This document shows, piece by piece, positions 4,856-16,519 of a DNA stretch of 50,278 bases; positions within the stretch are counted from its first letter, which is position 1, and every line of letters begins with the position of its first letter. A program made the translations under genes and the position numbers. The stretch comes from Blastocatellia bacterium (GTDB lineage Bacteria > Acidobacteriota > Blastocatellia > HR10 > J050), in contig JANWZE010000057.1 of assembly GCA_025054955.1 (NCBI GenBank), forward strand, positions 1 to 50,278, written 5' to 3'. The notes under the pieces were generated by a model, which was not told where the DNA came from, ran no database searches, and saw only the letters and a list, made by a program, of their open reading frames with translations.

Positions 4856-5116
4856 AGTTGTCTTCGTTTGAGTTGACCTGACATGTGACCGGTTTTTCTG
4901 CGACCTTCAGGCGGCGCACTCAGCTCGGGAAAACGTGCGGACGATTCGTCATGGATAGCGTCGCTGCCATTGCCTGCTGCCAGGATGGACGCCCTTGCTC
5001 GGCGGCGACTCGCGCTGCGACCGCCAGGTTCACCGAATGACACGGGATCAGCTCTGAGTGATGAACTTGACGCGTGCAGGCTGGCGTGGTAGCGTTCATT
5101 TCTCAACAGATGAAGA
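4856..5116. other. Intergenic leader region before the riboswitch
   Basis: No gene is supported here on either strand. It holds a candidate promoter for the thiC transcript at 5067-5095. The rest shows no recognisable structure. Confidence 0.5.
5067..5095 (+). promoter_or_regulatory. Candidate promoter for the riboswitch-thiC transcript
   Basis: TTGACG (5067-5072) is separated by 17 bases from TAGCGT (5090-5095). The -35 is good and the -10 is weak. It would start transcription about 20 bases before the riboswitch aptamer. Confidence 0.35.
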
Positions 5117-5215
5117 CGGGACACGGGGGAGCCGGAGTGAGTCCGGCTGAGAGGGCGTCGCAGTCCGACGCCGACCCCACGAACCTGATCTGGGTAATGC
5201 CAGCGAAGGAAGCGG
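5117..5215 (+). promoter_or_regulatory. TPP riboswitch (THI element)
   Basis: The conserved thiamin-pyrophosphate aptamer is plain: GGGGGAGCC, then CTGAGAGGG (about 5147-5155), the variable GC-rich P3 hairpin GGCGTCG/CGACGCC, GACCC, and the strongly conserved GAACCTGATCTGGGTAATGC and CAGCGAAGGAA. It sits directly upstream of thiC. In this family TPP binding lowers expression of thiamin-synthesis genes. Confidence 0.95.
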
Positions 5216-5227
5216 TTCACGAGCTAA

Positions 5228-7066
<1,839 letters not shown>

Positions 7067-12523: not shown

Positions 12524-12571
12524 GCGATGAACTGCACGTATCCATTGCAATAAGCGACACGATCAACTGTG

Positions 12572-15500
12572 ATGGACTCGATCAAAGAGATTCTCGATCA
12601 TAACCTGCCTGGCGTCGCGCCATCCAAAATCGAGATGCTGGCCGGCAAGTTGCGACGATTGCCGGTGGAGCGGGCGCGGATCATGCTCGATGCCGGATTA
12701 TTGCTTGTCGGCTCGTCGGCGCGCGCGGCTATCGAATTTTTGTGGCACAGTCCTGACGTTGCGCGACAGTTACCGTTGGACGATGTGCGCGTCTGGGGCA
12801 AGATCGCGCGCCATCTGGTTCATGGTCATGCCGACGGCGCTATCCGGTTTTTCCAGAGCGCCGCGCCGGTGCTCCAGTCGCTGCCCGCGTCTGTGCGTAG
12901 CCTTGTGCTAGGCGTCTGCGAACGACAGACCACCATGTCTCCACCGCTGGCCATAGACTGTTTCATGGCCGCGCCGCAATTGATCAGCCACATCAACGAT
13001 CAACATGTTGCCACTCGCCTTTATGCGATTGCCTATGAGATCAGCCGTCGCAGCGCCACGCAAAGCGCCGAACTGCTCAAAGCTGCGCCGCGAGTCCTTG
13101 CGTTCTTGCGCGCCGAGCATCGCGGCCCAATCCGAAAGCCAGCCCAGGACCGTCACCAATCGGACGAAGATCAGTATCAACTTATTGACGAAGTTCTAGC
13201 GCTGACAGAAGCGTTCGCTCAACGAGCCGGCGGCCTGGCCACCGAGTTTTTTGCCACGTTGCCTCAGGCACTGCCAGAAACACCTGTGCCACTGCAAATG
13301 ACGCTGCTACACGCTACTCGATGCTTTCTCGAACGAGGGGGTGGCGCCGCCTTGCAATACTTTCTCGTGGCTGGACGCTTGTTGGTCAGCGCCGGCCCTG
13401 GTGCGCTCAGTCGCTGGACGGCGCTGGCGCAGAAAATTGCCGTGCAGGGAAATGCCGCTGTCTACCATTTCTTGAAGGTCACGCCGCCGGTGATCACAGC
13501 CTTAGTGGCGCTCGGTCGTCATCGCGCCGATGCGTTCACGAGCGGCGTGCTCGACGTGGTCAATGAGATAGCTGATGAGAATATCTCGCTGGCCATCGAA
13601 TGTTTCAAGTCGAGTCCGACGGCGCTACAATCAAGTTCGCTCGAACAATTCGCTCGCTGGGCGCATGCCGGCTTGCGCTTGCGTCAGCGCGACATGCGCC
13701 ACGCTCAGGCCTATTACGCGCTGGAAACAAAGTCCAGTCAACAGTCCTTGAATCAGCTCACGGGCGGCCTCTCACTTGACAAAGTGTTAAACACATTGCG
13801 TCTCTACATCGAAGGGTTGGCAGGTCAGCAGATCATGGTCAAACCATCACCGACGTTCGCGCTCTCACGCCTGCCCGATGAGCTGCGCCTGCATGAGGCC
13901 GCGACCGTGTATCTGCCCTCGCTGATCCACGAATTCGAAGACGAAGCGTCAAATTTCAGAATCTATAAGGCGCTGGCCGCGCACATGGCCGGCCATATCG
14001 AGTTTGGAACATACGCCACCGACACACCGCCGCTCCAATCCGTGATGACGCGCATCCAGGCAGATGGATCGCAGCAACACGCGCCGTCAACATCGGCTCA
14101 ACCTGATGCCGAACCCATCAGTTATGCGACGGTGTTGTCGCAGTTTCCTGACCGTGAGTGGGCAATGCGCGTGTTCACCACGCTGGAAATGGCTCGCATT
14201 CACCAGCAGTTGAGACGTGTCTACCGCGGCTTGAGAGATGACCTTGATCTGTTTCAAACTAGGCTGCGCCAACATCGCCCCCATCTTGACACAATGAGCT
14301 CCGACCAACTGCTTGTCGAATTCCTGTTCCAACTGACGCTGTGTGGCGAATGCAGCAAGACGCTACACTCCATGTTTGCCCCGCTTGCGCCGCGCCTGCA
14401 AGACATCCTCACCCAAACCATCTATCGTCCAGAAGCCACTGTGGCCGACACCTTATTGGCGGTCTATCACATTCATCAATTAGTGGCCGGCGCGCGTCAA
14501 CAACCATCTGAGTCGCTCGATTCGGATCAACGCGCGGGTCAAGCTGAGACCCAACCAGAGCCGCAATCAATGAGTGAGAACATGGCTTCGATCCATGAAG
14601 ATGCGCTGGGCGACCGAGCCGACCACATTCAAGACATACACGCCGACCCTTCACAATCATGGATGGAGCTGATGGGCAAGCGTCTGCCATCTACGCTTCA
14701 TTCGCAGCTCTGGTCAAACCACAATCTTTCCGAAGAGTACGCTCTTGAGCCGGGTGATCAGGTTTATTTTTACGACGAATGGGACCGTGAACTGGGCGAT
14801 TATCGCGCTGATTGGTGTCGGGTCGTGCAGAAATCAGCGCGGCGTGGAGGACAACAATTCGTTCAGTACGTGCGCTCCTACTACGGGCCAATGATCGGCT
14901 CAATCAAACGGCAGTTTCAACTGCTTCGCCCTGAAGCGTTGCGACGCATACGCGGCGAGCTTGATGGAGAAGAGTTCGATCTGCAAGCAGTGATTGATTA
15001 CGCGCTCGACCGTCGCACATCGGGTCGCGTCTCGGAACGACTCTACGTCCGGCGGCTGCGTAAACAGCGTGATGTGGCTGTCTCGTTTCTGCTCGATATG
15101 TCCAGTTCAACTGCGCGCACGGTCGGCCCCGCTCGCGCCGAGCGCGGGCGAGTCGCCAAGCGAATCATTGACATTGAGAAAGAAGGGCTGGTGTTGATGA
15201 GCGAGGCGTTGGAAGCGGTCGGAGACATCTACTCAATTCAAGGCTTCACCAGCGAAGGGCGCCATCATGTCAAATTTTTCGTCATTAAAGATTTTGAAGA
15301 GCCGTATGGCGCCGAGATCGAATCGCGGATTGGCGGCATCACCTACCAGAACAACACGCGACTGGGCGCAGCGATTCGCCATGCCACAGCTCGGCTCAAG
15401 CGACAAACCGCTCATACCAAACTGCTCATCGTGCTGAGCGACGGACGACCTTACGATCATGATTACGGTGACGCCCGCTATGCTCGCGACGATACCAAGG

Positions 15501-15673
15501 TTGCGTTGAGACAAGCGCGCCTCGATGGCATCATCCCATTCTGCATCACGATTGATCGCGAGTCCGAACCGCAACTGCGCGATATGTACGGCGAAGTGGG
15601 ATACACGATCATTGATGACATTCTGCATCTTCCTGAGCGCTTGCCCGGCATCTACCGTCGTCTCACCCAGTGA
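12572..15673 (+). CDS. Very long VWA-domain protein, NorD/CbbO-like, with N-terminal helical repeats
   Basis: The 1033-residue protein is the likely partner of the AAA ATPase just upstream. The C-terminal third is a von Willebrand A domain with the metal site DMSSS (MIDAS, about residue 841) and [13 protein letters not shown] (about 953), as in NorD/CbbO. The N-terminal part (about residues 40-380) is a run of imperfect helical repeats with the pattern A-x-x-F-F-x-x-x-P-x-x-L (for example [15 protein letters not shown] and [13 protein letters not shown]), suggesting an alpha-solenoid. A low-complexity acidic/Gln/Ser segment (about 640-700) separates the two. NorD proteins are usually much shorter. 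An ATG at 12572 follows an in-frame GTG at 12569; no ribosome-binding site is evident. No nor or cbb genes are nearby. Confidence 0.8.
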
Positions 15674-15990
15674 CGTTGCGAAACACAGCGAGAAGAATCA
15701 CTGTCCCTCACGCTGGACTGGTATTTGCCTTCACATCACTGGACGATGCCCGGAAACAGGCTTGCAGAGAGCGTTTGCAGCCTGAAAGGATTTTTCTTCC
15801 GATTGCACGCAGGATTGATTTTTCATTTTTTCGATCACACTTCGCTTAACTCTTGAGAAAAAAGTTGTTGACATTTGATGCGAAAAGGTTTATAAGATGA
15901 CAAGATATTGTGTGTGTGGTTCAATTGTACACAATGCGAGACTAGCCACAGGATATTGTGGTTAGTGAAATTTGAATAAGGAGAAACACT
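15674..15990. other. Leader and promoter region of the H1-like gene
   Basis: No gene is supported. The stretch holds a strong promoter at 15868-15896 and a roughly 90-base untranslated leader ending in AAGGAG (15978-15983). The leader has the short repeat ATATTGTG at about 15904 and 15953 around CACAATGCGAGACTAGCCACAG. Confidence 0.6.
15868..15896 (+). promoter_or_regulatory. Strong sigma-70-type promoter for the H1-like gene
   Basis: A perfect TTGACA (15868-15873), an optimal 17-base spacer and TATAAG (15891-15896), preceded by an A-rich stretch that could act as an UP element. This is among the best promoter matches in the window. Confidence 0.85.
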
Positions 15991-16158
15991 ATGGCAACAA
16001 AGACGAAGAAACCAGCGAAGAAAACCACGAAGAAAGCTTCGAAGCTAATCTCCACGGCCGTTGCTCCAAAGAAGGCGGCGCCGAAGAAGAAAGCGACGAA
16101 GAAAGCAGCAGCACCCAAGAAAAAAGCGGCTGCCAAGAAAGCCACCAAGAAGAAATAA
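15991..16158 (+). CDS. Lys/Ala-rich histone H1-like small DNA-binding protein
   Basis: A 55-residue protein that is nearly half lysine, built of PKKK, KKA and TKK blocks (MATKTKKPAKKTTKKAS at the start, KKATKKK at the end). It resembles the lysine/alanine/proline tails of histone H1 and of bacterial Hc1, AlgP and HU-tail proteins, and would be an unstructured polycation that binds DNA or RNA. AAGGAG lies 7 bases before the ATG. A near-consensus promoter upstream and a textbook terminator downstream mark it as a highly expressed single-gene unit. A low-complexity protein of this length is easily missed by gene finders. Function (chromatin compaction, RNA binding) is inference. Confidence 0.8.
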   Translation: MATKTKKPAKKTTKKASKLISTAVAPKKAAPKKKATKKAAAPKKKAAAKKATKKK

Positions 16159-16216
16159 GTTTGAGGGTGGTCTCACAGCTCTGAGAGCGTTTCGCCTCAG
16201 CGAACATCAGAGCACA

Positions 16217-16275
16217 CCCGGTGTTCTCACATCATCCGGACAAAGAACGAACCAGGCCGATGCGAGAACACCGGG
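16217..16275 (+). repeat. 12-bp perfect inverted repeat in the 3' untranslated region
   Basis: CCCGGTGTTCTC (16217-16228) and GAGAACACCGGG (16264-16275) can close a 35-base loop. It lies between the H1-like stop codon and the terminator, so it would fold in the transcript 3' end. Confidence 0.7.
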
Positions 16276-16286
16276 AGCGATTGATA

Positions 16287-16314
16287 GGGATGGGTTGCCA
16301 TCCCTTTTCTTTTT
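16287..16314 (+). terminator. Intrinsic terminator of the H1-like gene
   Basis: GGGATGG, loop GTTG, CCATCCC, followed directly by TTTTCTTTTTC. The stem is perfect and the T-run is strong. Confidence 0.92.
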
Positions 16315-16519
16315 CTCCTGTCCACGCACGTCTTGCTCAATGCTCAACTGCATGCAACGCGCGGATGAGTCGCCATCCCTTTGTTCTGTTCTCACGGCTC
16401 CTGCTCGCTTGATCGGCGTCGCCGTGCTCGCGGATTCGCGTTGAATCTCCTGCCGGCCTGATCGTCTCGGTTCGGCACTCACCGATCGGATTGAGTTGAG
16501 CGAAGCCTCGGCTCGTTCT

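Follow-up and report, generated by a model that had tools for sequence, protein, structure and literature searches.

Does the stretch between positions 15868 and 16315 of the window, as we call the whole 50,278-nucleotide stretch of DNA analysed here, carry a genuine gene, and if so, what controls it? The original prediction had read there a promoter, a ribosome-binding site, a 55-residue lysine-rich frame and an intrinsic terminator, and we found each of them in the window.

A small gene for a lysine-rich polycation

All features lie on the forward strand. A sigma-70-type promoter, TTGACA-N17-TATAAG (15868-15896), has its -35 hexamer at 15868-15873 and, after a 17-nt spacer, its -10 hexamer at 15891-15896. 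It is followed by the ribosome-binding site AAGGAG (15978-15983) and by an ORF (15991-16158, from the ATG to the end of the stop) for a polycation of 55 amino acids, MATKTKK...KKATKKK, with 42% lysine. The unit closes with an intrinsic terminator (16286-16315), whose stem AGGGATGG-GTTG-CCATCCCT spans 16286-16305 and runs into the T-rich tail TTTCTTTTTC; a GGATGG..CCATCC stem stands after the unit in all nine members of the window's order. The 3' untranslated inverted repeat (16217-16275), predicted as 12 bp, is present and longer than that, with 17-nt arms (16217-16233 and 16259-16275) that are 94% complementary around a 25-nt loop. Its sequence is not conserved: the window stem was not found in eight other order members, which have different predicted 3' folds in its place, so we reject a conserved 3' stem. 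The extra control that had been ascribed to it is not supported, the conserved regulatory feature lying in the 5' leader.

Protein searches were of little help in finding relatives. One with the window polycation matched 1 of 58 genomes, the window's own, and a second found in 16 genomes, the window itself apart, nothing better than E 0.09, which in our opinion is due to the low complexity of the polycation. Synteny was used instead. Relatives of the adjacent VWA-domain gene (12569-15673) occur in 16/16 genomes tried, the window's own included, and the unit lies directly downstream of this gene in eight (G001 to G008), while in G009 the contig stops with the VWA-domain gene. In more distant class members (L012, L013, L015, L016, L018, L019) the unit was not found in the 760 bases after this gene. 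We take the sampled class to be Blastocatellia, since a relative of the VWA protein at 47% identity (L003) belongs to a Blastocatellia bacterium.

A model of the leader (R1) was then built from 11 aligned sequences that begin behind the -10 hexamer and run up to the ATG, promoter excluded, nine from the window's order and two from a distant family (L034, L036). At E<=0.01 it matched 70 of the 162 genomes of the class, in 33 of 53 genera, and we examined 70 matched places in 69 genomes (G150 contributing two and G132 none), setting aside three opposite-strand matches at the same places. A scripted search found TTGAC[AT]-N17/18-TATA directly upstream in 69 of the 70. The match at L121 (G056), at E 0.009, was discarded as false. 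A Lys-rich ORF (19-50% Lys) comes after the leader in 67 of the 69 promoter-bearing places; among the 59 places outside the R1 training set, promoter and Lys-rich ORF occur together in 58. A frame broken in relatives, named beforehand as what would refute the gene, was seen only in part: at two of the 69, L059 (G006) and L060 (G003), the first ORF is Lys-poor, but by eye a Lys-rich ORF of 15 or 16 codons still follows before the conserved terminator.

A second, sequence-only model (R2), built from the 69 leaders, matched 81 of the 162 class genomes at E<=0.001, 12 of them new with respect to R1, and the remaining 81 gave no match even under this broader model. Four of the 12 were read, and G023, G014 and G022 carry true units while G089 does not. 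In a phylum sample of 396 genomes, which included class members so that outsiders number fewer than 396, R2 matched 22, with only G505 marked as outside the class; that match is not such a unit, and the leader-plus-gene unit was not found outside the class in this sample. Both weak matches, G089 (L143) and G505 (L142), were rejected, having no promoter-plus-Lys-ORF unit. The leader occurs about once per genome, and in the window's genome the sole good R2 match on both strands is the window leader itself, the next being at E 0.2. G150 carries two units (L112, L113), the second encoding a different polycation with PPTKLTKV-type repeats.

The complete ORFs encode 24-168 amino acids (the 20-residue ORF of L070 leaves its contig and that of L079 crosses masked bases), with a median of 38% Lys over the 69. 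Pooled over 67 ORFs (3836 residues, leaving out L059, L060 and L121), the composition is 33% K, 27.5% A, 10% G, 8% T and 6% P, the Lys/Ala-rich and highly basic make-up by which bacterial H1-like proteins are recognised. Length and filler residues vary widely, the latter from K/A to K/G, K/S and K/P, and charge is kept, which suggests that charge is what selection maintains, as it does in H1 tails. Such a composition also suggests a disordered protein. Start codons were picked near the match end, by ribosome-binding string first and Lys content second, which favours Lys-rich frames; this bias is not the whole explanation, since the MATK starts seen in 47/69 would not arise from it (36/69 end in KKR). 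In 29 equal-length ORF pairs less than 22% different, which overlap and hence are not independent, differences number 49/74/185 at codon positions 1/2/3, and 147 codons changed synonymously vs 102 non-synonymously, where random mutation would give 20-24% synonymous. This codon-position bias indicates that the ORF is translated. That the locus holds a self-contained, translated Lys/Ala-rich unit of H1-tail composition is thus borne out, the unit being kept in many relatives with the same promoter, and a genuine small gene for a lysine-rich, histone-tail-like protein is well supported.

No Pfam or NCBIfam family matched the window protein at E<=1, and five relatives stayed below the family cut-offs, with best scores of 13 bits vs 40 for HC2 (PF07382), 12.3 vs 80 for NF038053 and 10.1 vs 135 for NF038052, in tests that low complexity weakens (L067 also matched an FtsK model, at E 0.0009 and far below its cut-off). 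The Pfam search likewise gave the window protein no match to the HU family (PF00216), which has five matches elsewhere in the window's genome, so the polycation comes in addition to HU and does not replace it. Two further arrangements of Lys-rich frames were seen. The four g4 genomes of family f3 (L052-L055) have a second Lys-rich ORF, of 15 codons, just past the first stop, at a TAACATG or TAAGATG junction behind a GGAGG-like string, and at L135 (G014) the convergent gene, encoded on the other strand, looks by eye like one more Lys/Ala/Pro-rich ORF.

Three dyads at fixed spacing

The 5' leader upstream of the ORF (15901-15966), of which the original prediction made no mention, is better conserved than the protein and is as well supported as the gene. 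Dyad 1 (CAAGATATTG, 15901-15910, alignment columns 6-15, class consensus CaAnATnTtG) overlaps the predicted transcription start and has C6, A8, A10, T11, T13 and G15 invariant in 69/69 sequences. The same holds for T30, G32, A36, C37, A38 and A39 of dyad 2 (ATTGTACACAAT, 15924-15935, columns 29-40, consensus CTwGnnnnCAAG) and for C54, T61, G63 and T64 of dyad 3 (CACAGGATATTGTG, 15947-15960, columns 52-65, consensus CACAgnATnTTGTG), which makes 16 invariant columns in the alignment. The dyad centres, at columns 10.5, 34.5 and 58.5, are exactly 24 bp apart. There is no gap in the first 71 columns, though many of them vary freely; indel-bearing matches score lower, so selection may partly account for this, and in the 11 new R2 matches besides G089 the matched span equals the model span, hence no net indel. 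Dyads at fixed spacing, with no indel in 69 sequences, are what an operator array would display. The array is also symmetric about dyad 2, with column pairs 6:63, 8:61, 15:54, 30:39 and 32:37 Watson-Crick in 69/69, and in 17 genomes R2 matches this place on the opposite strand as well. At L143 (G089), dyads 1 and 2 stand rightly spaced upstream of a hydrolase-like ORF, with no Lys-rich ORF, a pair that may be a remnant or a second target.

The promoter is just as regular. Its -35 hexamer is TTGACA in 67/69 and TTGACT in 2/69, the spacer measures 17 nt in 65/69 and 18 nt in 4/69, and the -10 hexamer reads TATA[ACT][ACG] in 69/69. The last T of a -10 hexamer is usually well kept, and its absence here and from all 69 promoters is perhaps a shared tuning feature. 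From the end of the -10 hexamer to column 6 the distance is -2 to 10 nt, depending on the family, so that promoter and array shift relative to each other while the array length stays constant. Transcription starts about 7 nt after the -10 hexamer, and with start sites predicted in this way most families probably leave the left half of dyad 1 out of the transcript; where the gap is -1 to 3 nt that half, though invariant, would lie before the start site and so would not be conserved as RNA. A GGAG, AGGA or GAGG string precedes the chosen start in 69/69, that of L060 sitting in dyad 3 and not being a real site. At the other end of the unit, a strict search found a perfect stem plus T-tail after 21/69 ORFs, which include every member of the order (nine) and of family f4 (seven), plus five more.

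Rfam 15 gave nothing above gathering score at the window unit or at six related loci; the eight matches below it (best E 0.023, on the minus strand of the 3' hairpin) look like chance. Elsewhere in the window, a TPP riboswitch (RF00059, 65.3 bits) at 5115-5228 lies just upstream of ORF 5246-7066, which we read as thiC-like, an ordinary riboswitch arrangement. The open-access papers searched contained nothing on such a leader or on Blastocatellia H1-like proteins. Several other identities for the dyads were considered and dropped: a CsrA-type GGA hairpin in dyad 3, as the GGA is lost in relatives (GCATAT, GAATAT, CGATCT), a DnaA box in dyad 2, the likeness being too loose, and attenuation by a terminator within the leader, as by eye no T-run follows any stem. 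Ten matches to the dyad-3 pattern in nine genomes, each with 1 mismatch, have unrelated contexts (L032, L033, L035, L037, L038, L047, L048, L049, L050, L051). That at L032 (G028) is a chance match inside an apparent CRISPR array with repeats of about 36 nt and unique spacers, and those at L035, L037 and L051, also chance, lie where a short direct repeat resembling GTCAAAGGTCAATAG occurs in many copies.

DNA and RNA readings of the leader

Around dyad 3, the window's transcript is predicted to form a 10-bp hairpin, P3 (ACTAGCCACA-GGATAT-TGTGGTTAGT, 15941-15966), whose core has a mean pairing probability of 0.98 in nine order members. In the 11-sequence alignment 88% of P3 cells pair and four outer pairs change on both sides; 0/500 shuffles reach its covariation score and 157/500 its count of double-changed pairs. 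Over all 69 sequences 81% of cells pair in helix S2, 79% in S1 and 67% in P3, and the helix predicted to dominate depends on the family: P3 (0.98) in f1-f3, S2 in f4, f7 and f8 (1.00, 0.99 and 0.88), S2 at 0.62 with S1 at 0.31 in f5, and S1 at 0.43 with a dyad-2 hairpin at 0.63 in f6. Asked whether the leader is structured, the data thus return covariation for three mutually exclusive helices and no class-wide fold.

Since no class-wide fold emerges and the favoured helix differs by family, yet the helices covary, we read the array as operator-like DNA with a folding transcript. We hypothesise, with a confidence that falls slightly short of even, that this element over the start site controls the dose of the histone-H1-tail-like polycation. 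A single-gene transcription unit would make a free-standing polycation resembling only the histone H1 tail, which would most likely neutralise and condense nucleic acid or another polyanion. A dedicated cis-element accompanying the gene, made up of three dyads 24 bp apart from about the predicted transcription start to about +60, would determine the dose of this protein. Most likely, initiation would be limited by a protein bound to this array as DNA, at the start site, and the transcribed part would then also fold as a hairpin tuning the mRNA, P3 in the window's order and S2 or S1 elsewhere. Against a DNA operator, no candidate regulator was found, a second good match is missing from the window's genome, which is unusual for a shared transcription factor, 81 of the 162 class genomes lack a match even under R2, and the 24-bp spacing does not correspond to an integral number of helical turns.

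A possible, if somewhat doubtful, alternative is that the leader acts as RNA, its dyad segments forming S1, S2 and P3 by turns and so making a switch or an autoregulatory site that would let the polycation, or a ligand, govern the gene's own translation, in the style of ribosomal protein leaders. Covariation speaks for it: besides that of P3 in the window's order, the scores of S2 (where columns 34:66 and 35:65 change on both sides), S1 and P3 over the 69 sequences are each reached by 0/500 shuffles, and L034 is predicted to form a long hairpin with z -6.1. With each pair type counted once per genus and column pair 13:56 (nearly always T-G) omitted, G-T cells exceed A-C cells by 14 to 1 in S2, 24 to 9 in S1 and, in the flanks of P3 within the order, 3 to 0. 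Such an excess points to constraint on RNA, since a symmetry of DNA alone should yield the two in roughly equal numbers; the outer S1 pairs of f6, however, have only 7 to 5. Also against the RNA reading, the preferred helix differs among families, and RNAalifold over all 69 leaders gives a negligible consensus of 5 pairs only (-1.8 kcal/mol). Pairs changed on both sides are equalled by shuffles in 160/500 cases for S1 and 423/500 for P3, the top three column pairs of an unguided covariation scan are mostly not base pairs (14:55, in S1, came fourth), and among eight leaders folded one at a time, L014 gained no stability over its shuffles. A probably untranscribed left half of dyad 1 also fits poorly with an RNA site, and occlusion of the ribosome-binding site (mean openness 0.39-0.63) gives no consistent signal across families.

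It is distinctly improbable that the leader does no more than provide a strong constitutive start and stabilise the mRNA at its 5' end, with the dyads keeping that end folded for high expression. The near-uniform TTGACA at 17-18 spacing would suit it, as would the hairpin of one kind or another predicted in every family folded, but such a stabiliser needs a stem and not 16 invariant columns with a fixed 24-bp spacing, nor would it account for -10 hexamers that all lack their last T. Chance, that is, a low-complexity ORF beside accidental promoter and terminator matches, is scarcely credible: Lys-rich repeats easily arise and the protein search over 58 genomes found only the window's own, but accident would not place the promoter at 69 and the Lys-rich ORF at 67 of the 70 leader matches, nor bias changes by codon position. 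A further reading, also an unlikely one, is a widespread autogenous loop in which the polycation would recognise its own three-dyad leader by shape, as a hairpin or cruciform, and not by sequence, with free polycation shutting off its own synthesis.

Known systems and what the unit may mean

Autoregulatory leaders of ribosomal proteins are short and move with the gene of a small basic protein, which the window leader does too; it differs from them in its rigid dyad spacing, and it has no Rfam match and no visible rRNA mimicry. Multi-dyad operators over a start site consist of symmetric, evenly spaced dyads, as does the window leader from the start site to about +60, but here there is about one array per genome and the transcribed part has base-pair covariation. 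With regard to the protein, AlgP (AlgR3) of Pseudomonas aeruginosa has a 124-residue N-terminal helical domain and KPAA repeats, a Lys/Ala/Pro-rich tail likened to that of H1, and C-terminal peptides that bind DNA (PMC9239181). The window polycation shares this Lys-rich, H1-tail-like composition, but unlike AlgP it is the tail alone, lacks a fixed repeat and has a leader dedicated to it. Chlamydial Hc1/Hc2 (HctA/HctB) and the H1-like proteins of Burkholderiales are lysine-rich polycations as well, and bind DNA. Hc2 varies in size by Lys-rich pentamers (PMC2848022), and the small RNA IhtA inhibits HctA translation (PMC3469542). In contrast to these proteins, the window unit has its control element in cis, and their family models score far below cut-off.

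The leader probably controls how much of a sticky polycation is made, and, being better conserved than the protein, it is a handle for finding such genes. In the family searches tried, polycations this short and consisting of a tail only went undetected, so that a bacterial class may hold a conserved chromatin-like component that is overlooked. Should the array be read by the polycation or by a dedicated regulator, the unit would bear on how bacteria dose a protein able to stick to any nucleic acid, and an autogenous leader, if true, would be a dosage sensor for nucleoid or polyanion charge.
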